Assembly (NCBI GenBank): GCA_021810625.1
Contig: JAJZIJ010000015.1
Coordinates: 1-59,868, forward strand
From: Acidobacteriota bacterium
GTDB lineage: Bacteria > Acidobacteriota > Terriglobia > Terriglobales > Acidobacteriaceae
DNA length: 59,868 bases
Direction of reading: 5' to 3'
Positions 5,214-13,034 of this stretch are shown in pieces. The translations under genes were made by a program, and so were the position numbers. Under the pieces are notes generated by a model. That model saw only the letters and a program-made list of their open reading frames with translations. It did not search any database and had not been told where the DNA came from. Position 1 is the first letter of the stretch; every line of letters begins with the position of its first letter.

Positions 5214-6686
5214 CTACCGCGAACTGTAGCTTAAGGATGCGCTCGTGTGGGTAGGGGCATGTTCCTGGCAGGGAAGAACCACGGAAAAGCAGGTGCCCGA
5301 ATGGGATGCTCGCGTGCTGCTCCGAATCTGAATGCGTCCACGATGTTCCTGAACGATTGAGGAACTCAGCCATAGGCCCACGCCTGACCCATTCAGCCCT
5401 TTCGTCGTAAAAAAAGCCTCGAAAATTCGTTTGAAATTCTGTGGGGGAATGCCCTCTCCTTGATCCAGGAATGTAACGCGCGCGGCTCGCTCCGCAGGCG
5501 TTCCCCAACGGAGAATCTCTGAAACCCTGAGCACGATTCTCTTTTCTGGTGGCGACGCTTCAATGGCATTTCGGAGGAGATTTGAAAATACCTGACGCAA
5601 CTGCGATGGAAATCCATATACCGCAGGCGTGCTGTTCCACTCTTTTTGTATATGAATTTTTTTCTCTACGATTTCCCGATTGCTCAATGCCAACACGTCC
5701 TCCAACAAATCTGGCAACTGAACAAAAATTGCGTCTGTGGATTCACGGTTAAACGAGAGAACCTGGCGGGTAATTTTAGAAACACGCATGACTTCTTCCT
5801 GCGCTTTGGATGTATATTTCACCCTTGTTGGCTCATCGACATCTCCGCCAAGGATGTACAGAATATTGGCAATTGCCTCCAATGGGTTATTGATCTCATG
5901 CGCGATGGTGTTCGCCATGCGCCCGGTCGCAGCCAGCCGCTCGTGGATCACAAGCGCCGCCTGAGCGCGTCTTTGCTCCGTCAATTCTGACACGATAAAA
6001 ATCCTGCCCGACTGGGCATTTTTCAGATAAACAGGGGAAAGTTCCAGGCGAAAGTGTCGGGTATCCACTTGCACCTCTTGGGTTGGATTTGCGCCTGCCG
6101 TGTCATAATCCACTCCAAAACATGCGCGTGCCAGACTCGATAATGACCGATTCTCGATGTCCATGTATGGGAGATTGAGCAGAGTGGTCATTCCACGATT
6201 GCAGCGCTGGATCATCCCTGAAGAATCAACAATCGCAATACCCTCGCTCAGAGAATCAAAGGTGGCCTGCCACTGCTCGCCTGCCAATCGAGATTGAGAC
6301 TCTGCAATATGTACTTTTATCAGAGACCGAACGGTGGCGATAAGGATGCTCGGCTCAACGGGCTGGCTCAGATAGGCATCGGCGCCGCTTCCCAGCGCAT
6401 GAATTTTACTTTCGTCGCTTAAAAAGGCTGCCGAAAGCTGTAGGATGGGAACGCTGCTCGTGTGCGGATTGGCTTTGATACGACGGCAAACTTCATAGCC
6501 CATGATATCTGGGAGTCGGACATCCAGAACAATCGCGGCAGGAAGCTCGTTTGCAAGTTCCAGTGCCTGCTGGCCTGTTGATGCTTCGACCACGGCGAAT
6601 TTCGCCCGCGACAGCGCATGTGCAGTCGTATACCTGCCTGCATCACTGTCATCAACAACCAGCACCTTGGATCCCAGCGTATTCAC
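5214..6686 (-). CDS. receiver-PAS-histidine kinase, last gene of the stressosome operon
   Basis: A 490-residue soluble signalling protein. The N-terminal receiver (about 7-125) has acidic pair VDDSD at 11-15 and phosphoacceptor D55 (VLDVRLPD), but the usual Lys of the KP motif is Gln108 (YLSQP). A PAS-like domain spans about 138-235. The kinase core has the HisKA histidine H263 (IAHEINNPLE), then the ATP-binding G boxes (DQGEGIPP, GSGVGLWLS). No membrane segment is seen. The GTG start overlaps the upstream stop as GTGA, so translation is coupled. It probably passes phosphate to an unlinked regulator, possibly after receiving it from the upstream kinase. Confidence 0.9.
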   Translation of the reverse strand: MNTLGSKVLVVDDSDAGRYTTAHALSRAKFAVVEASTGQQALELANELPAAIVLDVRLPDIMGYEVCRRIKANPHTSSVPILQLSAAFLSDESKIHALGSGADAYLSQPVEPSILIATVRSLIKVHIAESQSRLAGEQWQATFDSLSEGIAIVDSSGMIQRCNRGMTTLLNLPYMDIENRSLSSLARACFGVDYDTAGANPTQEVQVDTRHFRLELSPVYLKNAQSGRIFIVSELTEQRRAQAALVIHERLAATGRMANTIAHEINNPLEAIANILYILGGDVDEPTRVKYTSKAQEEVMRVSKITRQVLSFNRESTDAIFVQLPDLLEDVLALSNREIVEKKIHIQKEWNSTPAVYGFPSQLRQVFSNLLRNAIEASPPEKRIVLRVSEILRWGTPAERAARVTFLDQGEGIPPQNFKRIFEAFFTTKGLNGSGVGLWLSSSIVQEHRGRIQIRSSTRASHSGTCFSVVLPCQEHAPTHTSASLSYSSR

Positions 6687-8845
6687 AGGCTGATCCCCAC
6701 TGTATTCAGCACCCGATGAAGCCTGCCTGGGCTGTCATATCCACCGAACGTCGCTTTGGGATAGAGTGCGGCCCCCAGACTTTCAACCAATGCAATCTCG
6801 GTAACGGACAATACTTTTGAAGAGTGAACAATAATCGGCAAATCCTTTATCAAGGGATTACTCCGAATCTCACGAAGAACTTCAAAGCCATCCAGACCTG
6901 GCATGACGATATCGAGAAACATGGCGCTCGGCATGTATGTTTTCGCCATCCGCACCGCTTCGCGCCCGTCGCGGGCTTCGAGTATTCTGAATCCAGCGCG
7001 GGCCAGATCGTCTCCAAGCAGATAGCGGGTGACTTCATCATCATCCGATAAAAGAATTGTTTTTGAAGACGTTCCGTCGACCAGTTCGCGGATCATGTTC
7101 AAGAGCGTGAAGTGGTCAATTGGCTTGGCGAGAAATGCAGTTGCCCCCGCATCCATTGCGGGCTTTGGTTCATCCAGAACACTAACCACCAACACCGGCC
7201 CGGCGAATCCACGCGCCTTGATTTCCTCGATAAAGAACAAACAATCCTGCTGCCCAAGCAAACGATCCAGCACAAGCAAGGCCGGGGCTTCCTGCTCCAA
7301 TGCAGCGCGAGCTTCTTCCAGTGTGCCCACAAACACGAGGCGGTAGTTACTCTTCCTCAGTGAAGTCTCATGAACAAAGATGGTCTCCTGATTGTCTTCA
7401 ACAAACAGGATGATCGGCCCTGTGGCTTGTAAGTTCCCAGTGGCCTGTCTATTTTCCGGCGCAGGCATATTCCCTGACCGTTCCTGCATGTGATCCTGAG
7501 GCTTATCAAAATACATGGGAAGGCTGGCAATGAATGTAGAGCCGACAAGTGGTGTACTTTCCACCTTCAGAGTTCCTCCCAGCATCTCTGCCAACCGCCT
7601 CGAAAGTGGAAGACCTAGACCGGTTCCTTGAACCCGACTCTGTATCTCGCCATCAATCTGGGCAAATTCATCGAAAATTCGATCCAGGTTATGAGATGCA
7701 ATTCCAATGCCCGTGTCGAACACCCGGAACACGATTTGATTGCCGAATTCAGCCGCCGTTACGCGAACCTGCCCGTTCTGGGTGAATTTCAAAGCGTTTG
7801 AAATCAGGTTGCGAAGGATTTGCGATATCTTTCCCTCGTCCGTGTACAGCGGCGCGAGCGCTGGATCGGATTCAAAAACCAAGTCAAGATTGTTCCCGGA
7901 CAGGAGTGGTCGTAGCATTCCGCGCAAAGCGCCAAACATGTCCTCCACCGTAAACTGCTTTGGCTTCACTTCCACTTTTCCAGCCTCCACTTTGGCTAGA
8001 TCAAGCAGATCGTTGACCAGTTCGGAGAGGTCACAAGCCGACCGTTGGATATACATGACCTGCTTCTCCTGCTCCGGCCCCAGGTCGCCATCTGCGTGGT
8101 TGAGCAGCATTTTGCTTAGAGAAGAGATGGAATTCAGTGGCGTTCGGAACTCATGCGAAAGATTTGAAATGAAACTGGTTTTCAGATCGGAAATTCTTCG
8201 CAAATCTGTTGCGCGCTGATCGAGTTCCGCATAAAAAGCTACCACGCCACGATTCGTGTCTGCCAATTCCCGATTGAGCGCGGCGAGAATCTCCTGCTGT
8301 TCGCCAAGTTCAGAGAGCGCCTTCAATAATTCCTGATTCTGGCGCTCGATTTCTCCGAATGGGTCTGTGGCGCTGCTGGCGGATAGTTTGCTCGCCAATT
8401 GCTCGATTTGATCTGCCCCCAACCTCGGCGTCGAGAGCGGCAGGGACTTTCCTGCCTCCGCGCAAGTTCCAGAGGACGAAGAAACGATTCTAAAATAGTC
8501 CATCAACCGCCTGGTGCCAACGATGCCGTTTCCAAGACCCGTCCTGGAGATATATTGCCCGCGCAGAATTTGATCCAGATTTGCAATGCCTGGCCCGGTG
8601 TCGGTCACTGCGATGAGCAATATCTGCGGAGTGACATCTTGAACGAAAAACTCTACGGTTCCTCCGGTTGCGTATCGAAAGGCGTTTCGCGCCAGTTCTG
8701 AAGTCGCCGTCGCCAAACGGGTACGCTCCTGGTGATCGAAGCCCAACAATTCGGCAATATCCCGCGCGCGTTGACGAGCTTGCACCACATGTCGTTCATT
8801 GCGCAACCGAAGCGTCAAAATCGAAAATCTCTGAGGATGGTTCAT
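6683..8845 (-). CDS. hybrid kinase: RsbT-like ATPase + HisKA/HATPase + two receivers
   Basis: A 720-residue cytoplasmic protein. Residues 1-140 form an RsbT/RsbW-type ATPase (N-box SELARNAFRYA, E50 and N54; DTGPGIAN). A predicted coiled coil spans about 160-215. A classical kinase follows with H231 (LSHEFRTPLNS), N-box LRNLISNALKFT at 344-355, DTGIGIA and GTGLGLPLS. Two receivers end the protein, with phosphoacceptors at about D527 (VLDRLL) and D645 (FLDIVMPG). The ATG at 8845 overlaps the upstream stop (ATGA); an in-frame extension to 9070 lacks conserved sequence. An RsbT-like ATPase joined to a hybrid kinase suggests it reads stressosome state and converts it to phosphorelay output. Confidence 0.92.
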   Translation of the reverse strand: MNHPQRFSILTLRLRNERHVVQARQRARDIAELLGFDHQERTRLATATSELARNAFRYATGGTVEFFVQDVTPQILLIAVTDTGPGIANLDQILRGQYISRTGLGNGIVGTRRLMDYFRIVSSSSGTCAEAGKSLPLSTPRLGADQIEQLASKLSASSATDPFGEIERQNQELLKALSELGEQQEILAALNRELADTNRGVVAFYAELDQRATDLRRISDLKTSFISNLSHEFRTPLNSISSLSKMLLNHADGDLGPEQEKQVMYIQRSACDLSELVNDLLDLAKVEAGKVEVKPKQFTVEDMFGALRGMLRPLLSGNNLDLVFESDPALAPLYTDEGKISQILRNLISNALKFTQNGQVRVTAAEFGNQIVFRVFDTGIGIASHNLDRIFDEFAQIDGEIQSRVQGTGLGLPLSRRLAEMLGGTLKVESTPLVGSTFIASLPMYFDKPQDHMQERSGNMPAPENRQATGNLQATGPIILFVEDNQETIFVHETSLRKSNYRLVFVGTLEEARAALEQEAPALLVLDRLLGQQDCLFFIEEIKARGFAGPVLVVSVLDEPKPAMDAGATAFLAKPIDHFTLLNMIRELVDGTSSKTILLSDDDEVTRYLLGDDLARAGFRILEARDGREAVRMAKTYMPSAMFLDIVMPGLDGFEVLREIRSNPLIKDLPIIVHSSKVLSVTEIALVESLGAALYPKATFGGYDSPGRLHRVLNTVGISL

Positions 8846-9915
8846 CGTTTTTCTCCACCAGAAGCTGGTAGCCCCTGCGAAACCAGGATCGTTGCATCGT
8901 CGTTCCATCTGCGGAAATCCCGATAAAGAATTGCCGTCATCAGGGCAGGATGCCGGGAAGCCAGGCCCGGATATTGCTCCAGCCTTAATCGGGAGGTTAA
9001 GCCGTCGGAGTGCATCATGAGCAAGGAACCCTTGTCGCCGTTTTTCCCTGTATGCCAGGGGTATGACCATCGCTGAAACTTCGCAACCGAATGTCCCACG
9101 GTGCCATCCATTGAAACCATATTTCTGGTCTTTCCCGACGTGTAAATAGCGGCGGAGATATTCCCCACTCCGACATAATTCACGATATTTTTTGCGTGGA
9201 GAATCTCCGCGACTGCGATAGCGGCTCCTCGCGTGTGTGTTAGGCCATTATGGATTTCCATCAGAATGCGCTCCGGCGACTGCTCTGGAATACTCTGAAA
9301 AATGCGAATGGCTTCCTGCGACGCCTCTGCGGCCAGTGGGCCATGTCCCAGCCCGTCTGCAACAATGTAGATAGTCCGCGCTTCGCTATGGCTCATGCTC
9401 CAGGAATCGCCGCAAACCAATTCCCCTGGATACGGCACGCTAATGGCTCCCATGCCATACGGATTCAATTCATTTGCTGGTTTGTTTCCCTCGCAAAGGA
9501 CTCTGGCAAACAGTGCGGTTCCGCCATTGGGCGCCGAATAAATCTGTAAGCTTTCAGCAAGCCGCGCCATCGCTCCCAAACCCTCTCCGGCAGTTCCCGC
9601 CGTCGAGTAGCCATCTTCAAATGCCTGATCGATGTCCCCAATCCCTGGCCCTCGATCCAACGCGAACACATCCATGCCCGCCCTGCCCTCAAACACCCAC
9701 GGCGCAAGAACGATCTCGCCTGCTCCTGCATGCGCCGCGATATTGTTTGCCGCTTCCGTCACAATAATGGCCAACTCGCCCAACCGCGCTTTGTTGAATC
9801 CCATTGCCTTCCCAATCTCAACGGCCCGGCGACGCGCTTGCCCCGTTTGACTGGGGTCGTTGGTACGGATCGGAATCATTTGATTCTGGTACGACACTAC
9901 TTCCATCGGATACAT
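8842..9915 (-). CDS. RsbT-like ATPase fused to RsbX/SpoIIE-type PP2C phosphatase
   Basis: A 357-residue fusion. Residues 15-140 are an RsbT-like HATPase (TEAANNIAAHA N-box, LDRGPGI, GEGLGAMARLAES). Residues 160-350 are a PP2C-type phosphatase with all metal aspartates in place: CGDSW (D170), ADGLGHG (D187), HSDGL (D304) and NDDATI (D340). In Bacillus, RsbX dephosphorylates RsbR and RsbS to reset the stressosome, so this protein probably does the same here, perhaps also binding stressosome partners through its ATPase half. It overlaps the rsbT end by 19 bases. AAAGG precedes the ATG at 9915; an ATG at 9906 is an alternative. Confidence 0.9.
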   Translation of the reverse strand: MYPMEVVSYQNQMIPIRTNDPSQTGQARRRAVEIGKAMGFNKARLGELAIIVTEAANNIAAHAGAGEIVLAPWVFEGRAGMDVFALDRGPGIGDIDQAFEDGYSTAGTAGEGLGAMARLAESLQIYSAPNGGTALFARVLCEGNKPANELNPYGMGAISVPYPGELVCGDSWSMSHSEARTIYIVADGLGHGPLAAEASQEAIRIFQSIPEQSPERILMEIHNGLTHTRGAAIAVAEILHAKNIVNYVGVGNISAAIYTSGKTRNMVSMDGTVGHSVAKFQRWSYPWHTGKNGDKGSLLMMHSDGLTSRLRLEQYPGLASRHPALMTAILYRDFRRWNDDATILVSQGLPASGGEKR

Positions 9916-10310
9916 GTAACCTTTGTTCCGCGACCAATCTGCGTATCAATTGAGAATTCATCCATGAGCCGCTTGCTTCCACCCAGACCGAGTCCCATGC
10001 CCCGCCCACTGGCATAGCCATCCGTCAAGGCAAGGTTCACATTGGCAATACCGGGGCCGTTGTCAGAAAAAGCCAGCCGAATCCCCTGGCGCATCCCGCT
10101 GCTTACCTGTTCAATTTCCAGTTGACCACCGCCCCCATGTTCCAGCGCATTTCGCGCCAGCTCACTGGCTGCGGTCACAATTTTTGTTTTTTCCACCAAA
10201 CTAAAATTCATTTCTTCCGACCAAACGCGAACCCGCTGGCGTACCAGAATCACATCAGCCGCGCTCTGAATGGGCAGGAACTCAGTTTTCTGAATTGGCC
10301 CAATCATCAT
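9897..10310 (-). CDS. rsbT: RsbT serine/threonine kinase of the stressosome
   Basis: A 137-residue GHKL kinase with the N-box TAASELARNALEHG, the ATP-lid DNGPGIANV, and the RGMGLGLGGSKRLMDEF glycine-rich segment typical of RsbT. In known stressosomes RsbT is held by RsbR/RsbS, phosphorylates their STAS domains on stress, is released, and then activates a downstream partner. GGGAG is 6 bases upstream of the ATG-ATG pair at 10310/10307. It overlaps the end of rsbS by 29 bases, so the two are translationally coupled. No RsbU-like target is in the operon other than the PP2C fusion. Confidence 0.93.
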   Translation of the reverse strand: MMIGPIQKTEFLPIQSAADVILVRQRVRVWSEEMNFSLVEKTKIVTAASELARNALEHGGGGQLEIEQVSSGMRQGIRLAFSDNGPGIANVNLALTDGYASGRGMGLGLGGSKRLMDEFSIDTQIGRGTKVTCIRWK

Positions 10311-10680
10311 CTCGCTCCCGGATGTCCACCACCGTTTGCTGAAGAAACTGCATCCCCGACTCCACATTCAGAGCGGTTCGGATGCCCGGTAGCGACATGC
10401 CCAATTCGACCAGGGTAATGGCTACCGCTGGCTGCATTCCCACCACTACAGTCTCAGCATCCAGCACCTTGGCCATCGAGACGATGTTGGCCAGTGTGCG
10501 GCCAATAAACGAATCCACAATCTCAAGAGAGGAAATATCGATCAGCACGCCTCTGGCTCCCACGTTTGCAATGCGATTGGTCAAATCGTCTTGCAGCGTC
10601 AGGGCGAGCTTGTCGTGCATGTCCACCTGAATCGTCACCAGCAGCAAATTGCCCATCTGCAGGATTGGGATGCGTTCCAT
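10282..10680 (-). CDS. rsbS: RsbS single-domain STAS stressosome scaffold protein
   Basis: A 132-residue STAS protein very close in pattern to Bacillus RsbS: PILQMGNLLLVTIQ, LQDDL, then IDISSLEIVDSFIGRTLAN and GMQPAVAITLVELGM. Ser57 in VDSFIG aligns with Ser59 of B. subtilis RsbS, the RsbT target. RsbS with RsbR paralogues forms the icosahedral stressosome core that sequesters RsbT. It starts directly after the rsbR stop and overlaps rsbT. The C-terminus (RERDDDWANSEN) is slightly longer than Bacillus RsbS. Confidence 0.94.
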   Translation of the reverse strand: MERIPILQMGNLLLVTIQVDMHDKLALTLQDDLTNRIANVGARGVLIDISSLEIVDSFIGRTLANIVSMAKVLDAETVVVGMQPAVAITLVELGMSLPGIRTALNVESGMQFLQQTVVDIRERDDDWANSEN

Positions 10681-11565
10681 TTATGCCTCCCTGGGCGCTG
10701 CGACGCTGACGCTGGTTGGCTGCTTGCCGATGCGAACCACCGCGCGACCGCTGCGCTCCAGGGCCAATCGAAATGCGTCCGCCAGGCGAAACCGCGTGAT
10801 GACATCTTGCAAGTTGATGCCCAGGTGGACGATGGTTTGTGCAATCTGTGGCCGAATGCCGCTCAAAATGCACTCCGCGCCCATCAGCCGCGCAGCGGTG
10901 ACGGTCTTCAGTAGATGCTGAGCCACCAGCGTATCAACGATGGGAACACCGGTAATATCAATAATCGCAAAGCGGGAGTTCGTCTGGACAATGGCCTGGA
11001 GGAGTGACTCCATCACGACCTGGGTTCGCGCGCTATCGAGGGTTCCAATTAGAGGAAGCGCGACAATACCATCCCACAGGGTCACGACGGGAGTCGAAAG
11101 TTCCAGCATCTCCCCTTGTTGCCGAAGAATCACCTGATCGCGGCCATGAATATAGCTATCGGTGGTATGGAGCGCCAGCTTATCGACAAAATCATTCACG
11201 ATGGAAATATCCATGAAGAGTTCATCCGCATTGTTGCCGTGCTGCTGTCGTACCAGCGTGAACAGCGATGGCTTCAGCGAAAGCATAAACATTGCGGTTT
11301 CTGAAGGAGTGAAACCAAGGCTGCCACGCGATGCCGATAGATTGGCCAGCAGATATTTCAACGGCTGCCAGGCAACGTCCGTAAAGTTTTCCAGTGTGGT
11401 TTCGCTGGGAACATCAACAATGGCTGCGAAGACTTCCGTGGTTTGAATTTCCAACTCTCGGTCGTCGATCAGATCCCGTCGGCGAATTACAGCCCTCAGG
11501 CCTTGCAACCACTCCTTCAAGATGGATTCCCTATTCTTCTGGATCGCGCAGACTAAATTGCTCAT
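10681..11565 (-). CDS. rsbR: RsbR-type stressosome sensor (RsbRD-N + STAS)
   Basis: A 294-residue protein and first gene of the operon. The N-terminal ~140 residues are a helical RsbRD-type domain (ILKEWLQGLRAVIRRRDLID, SLKPSLFTLVRQQ), not the haem-free globin fold of RsbRA, so the sensed signal is open. The C-terminal STAS domain has IDITGVPIVDT with Thr212 aligned to the RsbT-phosphorylated Thr of Bacillus RsbR, then a Ser in the LSGIRP segment at about 235. A strong ribosome site (AAGGAG at about 11572-11577) lies 6 bases before the ATG. Only one RsbR is encoded here; paralogues may sit elsewhere. Confidence 0.93.
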   Translation of the reverse strand: MSNLVCAIQKNRESILKEWLQGLRAVIRRRDLIDDRELEIQTTEVFAAIVDVPSETTLENFTDVAWQPLKYLLANLSASRGSLGFTPSETAMFMLSLKPSLFTLVRQQHGNNADELFMDISIVNDFVDKLALHTTDSYIHGRDQVILRQQGEMLELSTPVVTLWDGIVALPLIGTLDSARTQVVMESLLQAIVQTNSRFAIIDITGVPIVDTLVAQHLLKTVTAARLMGAECILSGIRPQIAQTIVHLGINLQDVITRFRLADAFRLALERSGRAVVRIGKQPTSVSVAAPREA

Positions 11566-11758: not shown

Positions 11759-11796
11759 AAAAGGTTGCCCTGGGGAGAAAAGGTTGCCCTGGGGAA
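11759..11796. repeat. 19-bp tandem duplication
   Basis: The unit AAAAGGTTGCCCTGGGGA(G/A) occurs twice in direct succession. It lies in the non-coding region between rsbR and the REC-RsbRD gene. Too short and simple to assign a role. Confidence 0.8.
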
Positions 11797-11823
11797 CCTC
11801 TGAACAAGTCAGCATTTTGAAAG

Positions 11824-11876
11824 GGCGGGACTTTAGTCCCGCCGTAAGTACCTGCAATGAGAGCGGGCTTTAGCCC
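11824..11876. repeat. pair of REP-like palindromes
   Basis: A perfect 20-base palindrome (GGCGGGACT-TT-AGTCCCGCC, 11824-11843) is followed 21 bases later by a shorter related one (GGGCT-TT-AGCCC, 11865-11876). The arrangement resembles the bipartite REP elements mobilised by RAYT transposases. A partly matching element lies at 12979-13034 on the other side of the REC-RsbRD gene. No RAYT gene is in the window. Confidence 0.7.
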
Positions 11877-12001
11877 CTGAGGGACAGCCGTGGAACTTGA
11901 TCAGAGCTTCCCTAGTGCGCCGTGCAAAGCAACACAGGCATATCCATGACGCAACCCATCGGATTACTCAACATTTTCAAACCACGCAACACCAACTGCC
12001 C

Positions 12002-12883
12002 TTATGCCTCGACAAGCAGGTTATCGACCTTGGACTCAGAGATGTAACATGCCATAGCCTGGGCGAGCTGCGAATCCACTTCGTCGGCAATCGCCATGAC
12101 GTCCACCAGCAGCAGGCTGAAGTTTACAGTCCGAAGATTATTTTGCAGCGTCTGGAAGATGCTGACCTGCAACATGCGCGACTCTTCCACCATCATGGCG
12201 GCGGTATACCCTTGCTTGCGTCGCAGTTTCCCATGCGCTGCGGAGGCATGGGACACCAGTGCGCGCGTGCCCAGTGGGAGCGGGCTGCGAAGGCGAGTGA
12301 CCAGATCGTGAAACAACTGGGGCAGATGGGCGCAGCGCTCTTCGCTACTCAGCGGAACGGAGAGGATTTTCTTTTCATCCCCGACACGCAACTCCCACGC
12401 TGCAATGGTTGCCGATGTCTCCCGCTCCAGAATATCGGCCACGCTTTCTACGATCTTCACAGAATCTATCCCTCTCTTTAACCGCGTTCGGATGGTCTCC
12501 ACCAGCGTTTTCGGATCCAGGGGTTTTACCAAAATCTCGTCGGCCTGGTTCAAAATCGCCCCTGCGGCCTCTTTCATTTCTGGATAGCCGCTAAAGATAA
12601 TCGTTACCGCATTGGAATTGGAGTGGCGCATGGCGCTGACCAGGGTCAATCCATCCCCGGCATTGGGCATGTGCAGGTCGCTCAGCAGCACGTCAAAGTG
12701 CTGCGTGCTGATGCACTGGAGCGCCGCTTTTACACTATCCGCCGCAACCACTTCAAAGCCGCTGCGCAGCAAAACCATTTTTAGGGAATCAAGGACGGAC
12801 GCTGTATCATCCACGAGCAATATCTTTGGTCTGGTCAATTCCGAACGCTTTGCGATCGTCTGTTGCGTCTCTGCGTCGGCCAT
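12002..12883 (-). CDS. receiver domain fused to RsbRD-like helical domain
   Basis: A 293-residue protein. The N-terminal receiver (about 18-135) has VDD at 24-26, phosphoacceptor D69 (LLSDLHMPN) and the conserved K120-P. The C-terminal part (about 145-290) is helical and resembles the RsbRD N-terminal domain of RsbR-type proteins (ILERETSATIAAWELRV, HDLVTRLRSPLPLG). There is no DNA-binding or enzymatic output domain. Because the same helical domain type begins the adjacent RsbR, phosphorylation of D69 may feed the stressosome by domain pairing; this is inference. The ATG at 12883 follows GGGGAG; an upstream TTG/ATG extension is unlikely. It is separated from rsbR by 436 bases. Confidence 0.85.
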   Translation of the reverse strand: MADAETQQTIAKRSELTRPKILLVDDTASVLDSLKMVLLRSGFEVVAADSVKAALQCISTQHFDVLLSDLHMPNAGDGLTLVSAMRHSNSNAVTIIFSGYPEMKEAAGAILNQADEILVKPLDPKTLVETIRTRLKRGIDSVKIVESVADILERETSATIAAWELRVGDEKKILSVPLSSEERCAHLPQLFHDLVTRLRSPLPLGTRALVSHASAAHGKLRRKQGYTAAMMVEESRMLQVSIFQTLQNNLRTVNFSLLLVDVMAIADEVDSQLAQAMACYISESKVDNLLVEA

Positions 12884-12978
12884 TGCATACCACTCCCCGG
12901 AGCATCCCACCGATGCCTACCTGGAGTATTGCAGGCCGTTCTTTTCAGTTCTGCTCAATTTTGCTCACATAGGGAAGC

Positions 12979-13034
12979 TCTGAGCATGTCGGCGTTTTGA
13001 AGGGGCGCGACTTTAGCCCATGAAGGGGCGGGAC
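12979..13034. repeat. degenerate REP-like repeat related to 11803-11843
   Basis: The segment CTGAGCATGTCGGCGTTTTG followed by GAAGGGGCGCGACTTTAGCCC matches CTGAACAAGTCAGCATTTTG...GGGCGGGACTTTAGTCCC at 11803-11841 at most positions. It lies upstream of the REC-RsbRD gene, giving direct repeats on both sides of that gene. A further partial copy (GAAGGGGCGGGACTAT) follows. Confidence 0.7.

Follow-up and report, generated by a model that had tools for sequence, protein, structure and literature searches.

The C-terminal domain of a response regulator is usually a DNA-binding or an enzymatic one. A lineage-specific family with a sensor-type, predicted globin-like domain in that place prompts us to ask how such a domain would function as an output. 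The best structural matches to the domain described here are pXO1-118 and pXO2-61 (PDB 3pmd and 3pmc), which are stand-alone non-haem globin sensors. MabR, of the PucR family, has an N-terminal domain that has likewise been described as a non-haem globin sensor and whose structure matches 2bnl and 3pmd, among others (PMC11617747). In the stressosome, the STAS domain builds the core, and the N-terminal domains of RsbR form the turrets and are described as non-haem globin domains, as given in the accessible text of PMC6614362. RSTX modules followed by two-component proteins have been reported as well (PMC9237108, in the portion available). The combination of a receiver with an RsbRD_N-like domain appeared in none of the titles and abstracts among the literature matches listed, and no literature on PF14361, or on RsbRD with Acidobacteria, was found in searches that left most subscription journals outside their range. 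A search for the stressosome together with Acidobacteria returned a review on light sensing.

Here we describe P0001, a protein of this combined type encoded beside a stressosome operon in the window, the whole stretch of 59,868 nucleotides of Acidobacteriota DNA that was analysed. The features of the locus are as follows.

5214..6686, minus strand: REC-PAS-HisKA-HATPase kinase after the hybrid kinase (Pfam)
6683..8896, minus strand: hybrid kinase with HATPase_c_2, HisKA/HATPase_c and two receivers (start chosen; the ORF reaches 9070)
8842..9915, minus strand: HATPase_c_2 and SpoIIE phosphatase in RsbX-like position (Pfam)
9897..10310, minus strand: RsbT-like HATPase, so called from its place in the operon and its HATPase match (start chosen; the ORF reaches 10367)
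10282..10680, minus strand: RsbS-like STAS protein (Pfam)
10681..11565, minus strand: RsbR-like protein, RsbRD_N and STAS (Pfam)
11793..11914, no strand assigned: dispersed repeat copy between the P0001 gene and rsbR (47 matches in its own genome)
12002..12883, minus strand: P0001, receiver and RsbRD_N-like protein of 293 aa (ORF and Pfam)
12017..12442, minus strand: C-terminal helical, predicted globin-like domain of RsbRD_N type, residues 148-289 (sub-threshold PF14361, relatives, AlphaFold and fold matches)
12206..12235, minus strand: motif HGxxRxxQGY, H217-Y226 (alignments A1 and A2)
12488..12823, minus strand: receiver, residues 21-132 (PF00072, E=4.9e-21)
12524-12526 and 12677-12679, minus strand: codons of the site residues K120 and D69
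12972..13019, no strand assigned: shorter related repeat stretch on the upstream side (40/48 identical to 11792-11839)

Receiver and C-terminal domain of P0001

The reading frame at 12002-12883 given by the initial annotation is real, and it lies on the minus strand, which had been left unstated. It starts with an ATG that has GGGGAG ahead of it, while the mechanical ORF extends to a GTG at 12910. A promoter and terminator scan gave no signal above shuffles. The claim of an intact receiver was borne out, with a PF00072 score of 75.4 bits against a Pfam cut-off of 30.2 and with D25, D26, D69, S98 and K120 all in place, residues which we take to be the acidic pair, the phospho-acceptor Asp, the switch Ser/Thr and the Lys of the site. 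Residue 117, presumably the usual aromatic switch site of receivers, is Ile in P0001, Ile, Val or Leu in the near clade and Tyr or Phe in the distant clade.

The C-terminal half had been described as a helical domain like the N-terminus of the nearby RsbR, and an HMM search against the RsbRD_N family had been suggested as a check. PF14361 (RsbRD_N) matched residues 149-246 of P0001 over profile positions 2-103 of 104 with E=0.0064, but its score of 17.6 bits (18.1 for the C-terminal domain alone) was under the curated cut-off of 24.3. Since the same family was matched at E<=0.01 in 39 of the 55 aligned full-length relatives (best E=1.3e-10), the match of P0001 is more than chance. Two relatives were above the cut-off (L145 at 42.3 bits and L142 at 38.3 bits), and the nearest named relative of P0001, L171, had no PF14361 match at E<=0.05. 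When C-terminal domains were scanned alone, PF14361 was found in 26 of 39, and two other listed families in one member each. A match of the C-terminal half to an unrelated family, which the initial annotation had named as a refutation, was thus not what we saw, and we conclude that this half of P0001 is a divergent RsbRD_N domain. Pfam gave no STAS match in P0001, and no DNA-binding or catalytic domain was matched in its C-terminal half.

The N-terminal domain of the RsbR-like protein in the window is itself a clear PF14361 member (74 bits), and the P0001 domain resembles it in near-full coverage of the profile and in a common R..QG[YF]T core. It differs in its sub-cut-off score, in lying behind a receiver rather than before a STAS domain, and in an extra HG motif; the core of the RsbR N-domain reads SRAxQGFTPSE, which is related to but differs from HGxxRxxQGY. 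Comparison of the C-terminal profile with the RsbR N-domains by hhalign was weak (probability 5%, E 0.008, 132 columns). Against PDB sequences the C-terminal profile gave a single irrelevant match (E 0.61), and the profile of the RsbR N-domains recovered the solved RsbR chains (best E 0.00056). H217 is conserved in 53 of the 55 members of alignment A1, which holds 55 of the 57 full-length genes (L061 and L065, with partial receivers, were left out). Alignment A2 omits the distant clade and has six of the nine receiver-less stretches, among them L037, which is split off by a stop, and L066, which is cut at a contig end. The HGxxR motif is also common to P0001 and two RsbRD_N-HisKA-HATPase kinases from other Acidobacteriota (L267 and L270, with PF14361 scores of 43.1 and 26.9 bits), although there the RsbRD_N-type domain precedes the kinase, whereas in P0001 it follows the receiver.

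AlphaFold modelled the whole of P0001 with a pLDDT of 89.7 and the C-terminal domain alone with 93.5, and the C-terminal half was helical in both models. In a fold search with the whole model, the best 50 matches listed all fell on the receiver part, and therefore the C-terminal domain was folded alone. Among the matches listed for the domain model, the best were 3pmc (Z 14.4) and 3pmd (Z 14.2); these proteins have no receiver and are 13-14% identical to P0001. Globin-coupled sensors followed at Z 11.0-12.9 among the matches listed. The RsbR N-domain 2bnl aligned over 125 residues with Z 11.3 and rmsd 3.2, and 3zta over 132 residues with Z 12.1 and rmsd 3.0. We take 3zta, whose entry title reads 'The bacterial stressosome: a modular system...', to be an RsbR-type N-domain from Moorella. 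P0001 is structurally like both 2bnl and 3zta and differs from them in being without a STAS domain; unlike P0001, the MabR N-domain is fused to GGDEF-like and HTH modules and has no receiver. The best 50 fold matches listed span Z 10.9-14.4, haemoglobins and phycobiliproteins score about level with the RsbR N-domain, and Foldseek E-values for the domain model were weak (best 0.047). The predicted fold is globin-like and not specifically that of RsbR. The likeness to the RsbR N-terminus was upheld through the relatives that match PF14361 and through a predicted fold of the same general kind.

Stressosome genes and distribution of the architecture

The gene had been placed directly upstream of the stressosome operon. 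The order of the genes bears this out; the interval to rsbR is 436 bp long, however, and contains a copy of a dispersed repeat. Because RSTX modules followed by two-component proteins are a reported order (PMC9237108, in the portion available), the kinases after the stressosome genes in the window are of a known kind. A similar gene order ending in hybrid kinases was seen in most of the stressosome loci fetched. The kinase at 6683-8896 begins with an additional HATPase_c_2 domain of RsbT-like type. Four other stressosome operons (L126, L130, L152 and L153) have a divergent ORF of 133-162 aa, with a match to a receiver, immediately ahead of rsbR.

Across the family, the full-length architecture of P0001 was found in 55 of 150 genomes among the matches listed, where full-length means a match from query residue 60 or earlier to 236 or later (listing to E ~4e-15, with the best 16 candidates per genome scored). 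RsbT at 110 bits or more was found in 27 of the 150, and 13 genomes carry both. The remaining 42 of the 55 architecture-bearing genomes, some of them incomplete, are without RsbT at this threshold, and co-occurrence of the two across the 150 genomes had no significance (Fisher p 0.19). These counts were made by hand, and of the 31 genomes listed with RsbT-like matches, four at 71-91 bits (G029, G093, G095 and G148) were left out of the stressosome genomes; G095, which also has the P0001-type architecture, is counted among the 42. In a search of 297 genomes of the phylum, with the best 13 candidates per genome scored, the C-terminal profile matched at E<=1e-6 in 15. Ten of these belong to the same family and matched strongly, and five belong to other families and matched weakly; two of the weak matches were read and proved to be kinases that start with an RsbRD_N domain, and L268 gave no long reading frame. 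In the genomes searched, the P0001 family is found almost only in one family of Acidobacteriota. Besides the window genome, one genome of the genus was searched (90% complete), and it had no P0001-type gene.

Stressosome genes were found in the flanks of none of 80 named loci (up to 10 kb per side, often less; some loci lie on the same contigs). Conversely, 23 other stressosome operons have 1.3 kb or more of sequence ahead of them, and none of the 23 showed a P0001-type gene there. The operons printed numbered 25, without G023, and L118 (662 bp upstream) and L154 (2 bp) were set aside; the table has no row for the window, L156 or L157. Linkage or co-occurrence with rsbRST across relatives, the pattern of a stressosome-dedicated protein, was not found in these loci and genomes. 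The proposal that P0001 lets a kinase signal change stressosome state through RsbR gained no support as a mechanism common to the whole family, since 42 of 55 genomes are without RsbT at 110 bits or more and the counts in loci and operons were 0/80 and 0/23.

Two of the 57 full-length genes in the fetched loci and the window adjoin a stressosome operon, namely the window gene and L063 in G023. About 0.01 such adjacencies would be expected (Poisson p ~5e-5 to 8e-5), in a rough, post hoc estimate that takes gene order as random and each genome as having 1.5 copies. Two adjacencies above this rough chance level argue for some functional link or affinity, with the mechanism left unspecified. The L063 gene (7583-8410) lies 152 bp upstream of the rsbR reading frame, and the order in G023 is a divergent Crp gene, a small receiver, the L063 protein and then rsbR-S-T-X-kinase. 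In the L063 receiver the acidic pair is replaced by QT, D69 by N and K120 by T, so that the phosphorylation residues are lost, as they also are in a second G023 paralogue (L062:7602-8429). Because the receiver site is lost in G023, kinase control is not what the stressosome-adjoining arrangement conserves, which suggests that there the domain rather than phosphorylation matters.

Crp/Fnr neighbourhoods, tree and probable relocation

In the near clade, a Crp/Fnr gene lies within 2.5 kb of the P0001-type gene in 16 of 79 named loci, compared with one beyond 4.5 kb, and a same-domain paralogue does so in 11 of the 79, again compared with one beyond 4.5 kb; flank lengths differ in both comparisons. 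In the close relatives L033, L034, L035, L171, L172 and L173 the Crp/Fnr gene is upstream on the same strand. A small receiver gene stands between the two genes in L033 and L171, and a 64-residue remnant of it in L034. L175, which is close to the window, has no Crp gene in 1,376 bases upstream, and Crp linkage is that of a minority (22 of 95 tree rows, plus L063). A different arrangement was found in six loci of the distant clade (L067, L072, L131, L145, L146 and L148; 30-37% identity), where a kinase, a receiver-bearing regulator and the P0001-type gene follow one another on one strand. Pfam gave GAF, HisKA_3 and HATPase for one such kinase, and a receiver and GerE for one such regulator.

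From 114 sequences found, 99 of them distinct, the tree holds the 95 that are longer than 255 residues, and it covers the near clade (C-terminal score above 90 bits). The window is sister to five rows (support 99/86), all with a Crp/Fnr gene upstream, and L063 falls in a distant clade of four (support 100/100), so that the stressosome label stands in two places. This two-row label was no better than shuffles (500/500 as low), and stressosome linkage may therefore be old and lost many times. The initial annotation is right that the window gene adjoins the operon, but its stressosome reading draws no support from the sister clade, which sits behind a Crp/Fnr gene.

The window genome has its Crp orthologue, 77-78% identical to the Crp of L033, on another contig (G000:C18). 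No P0001-type receiver gene was found in the 6 kb read near it, on a contig that ends 1,078 bp beyond Crp. Since the sister clade is Crp-linked and the Crp gene of the window genome is on another contig, this copy has probably moved, and relocation of the P0001 gene from a Crp neighbourhood is the simplest reading. As most of the relatives examined are away from stressosome genes, the position of P0001 next to them appears to be recent. The repeat between P0001 and rsbR, of ~120 bp, matches the 2.45 Mb genome 47 times at E<=1, counting itself and a few weak matches at the end of the list. It is REP- or MITE-like. The P0001 gene is bracketed by this copy and the shorter related stretch upstream, and repeat copies are also near the Crp gene on C18. 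Faster evolution after the move was considered and was not clearly supported, as P0001 is 71-77% identical to four relatives and these are 74-82% identical to one another. The corresponding Crp identities are 74-83% for G000 against the four relatives and 79-87% among them. The end branch of the window is nonetheless 0.35, compared with 0.05-0.15 in the sister clade. L207, which is labelled Rhodanobacteraceae, falls inside the Acidobacteriaceae clade and is possibly a transfer or a mis-binned contig.

Candidate roles of P0001

P0001 is probably a response regulator that can be phosphorylated and that acts through a globin-like output domain, which would bind proteins and possibly a ligand; its gene now lies ahead of a stressosome operon. 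Phosphorylation of D69 by a histidine kinase would alter how the globin-like half associates or what ligand state it is in, and that half would then bind a partner protein. Likely partners in this lineage would be the co-encoded Crp/Fnr regulator, neighbouring paralogues with the same domain, or the kinase-regulator pair. We infer phosphorylation, dimerisation, partner binding and relocation of P0001, and equally any effect on the stressosome; input from P0001 to the stressosome is possible. Through this family, a possible link from two-component kinases to stressosomes or to Crp-type regulators could be put to the test.

Position beside the operon may also be an accident, with a repeat-mediated rearrangement having carried the gene and P0001 still acting in trans with Crp/Fnr. 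The bracketing repeat stretches, the Crp orthologue kept elsewhere near further repeat copies, and the absence of the gene from the one other genus genome searched (90% complete) are in its favour, but two stressosome placements are improbable by the rough chance estimate and Crp linkage does not extend to the family as a whole, and we consider this account rather doubtful. Somewhat unlikely, too, is that P0001 serves either or both of the operon's hybrid kinases as their response regulator or phosphate sink. Two HisKA kinases do end that gene run, and a gene of this type follows a kinase and a receiver-bearing regulator in the six distant-clade loci; however, most of the other stressosome operons fetched have comparable kinases and no such gene nearby. 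Pairing of the RsbRD_N-like half with the RsbR N-domain, or its joining the turrets, so that phosphorylation alters RsbT release, we regard as unlikely. The two domains share a family and a fold class, their genes are adjacent on one strand, and the second member in G023 makes two adjacencies, far above the rough, post hoc expectation and in separate well-supported clades. Against this, most genomes with the architecture are without RsbT at 110 bits or more, linkage was absent from the 80 named loci and 23 other operons, the G023 receiver has lost its site residues, P0001 has no STAS match, 436 bp and a repeat separate the genes, and the conserved motifs of the two domains differ. The fuller form of this idea, in which a receiver-gated globin-like subunit docks on RsbR turrets, a kinase sets the state of the stressosome, and recruitment took place in two clades with a phosphorylation-independent version in G023, seems unlikely as well.

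A phosphorelay from D69 to H217, with the C-terminal half as a phosphotransfer domain, would fit the near-complete conservation of H217 (53/55), but it was rejected as very improbable. The histidine is invariant in A2, including the receiver-less L049, L056, L057 and L069, it recurs in the two RsbRD_N-kinase fusions and so belongs to the domain, and the predicted fold is globin-like.

For the preferred reading, that of a response regulator with a protein-binding output, copies of the C-terminal domain without a receiver lie near a full-length gene in L049, L056, L057, L239, L241 and L243. Their proximity suggests that they are same-domain partners, and these stand-alone paralogues parallel the stand-alone state of pXO1-118 and pXO2-61. 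D69 is still present in L053 and L058, but their acidic pair and K120 are gone. In G039 (L037:7723-8661), a TAG stop between the receiver and the C-terminal domain divides the gene into two ORFs, which may be a fission or a pseudogene.
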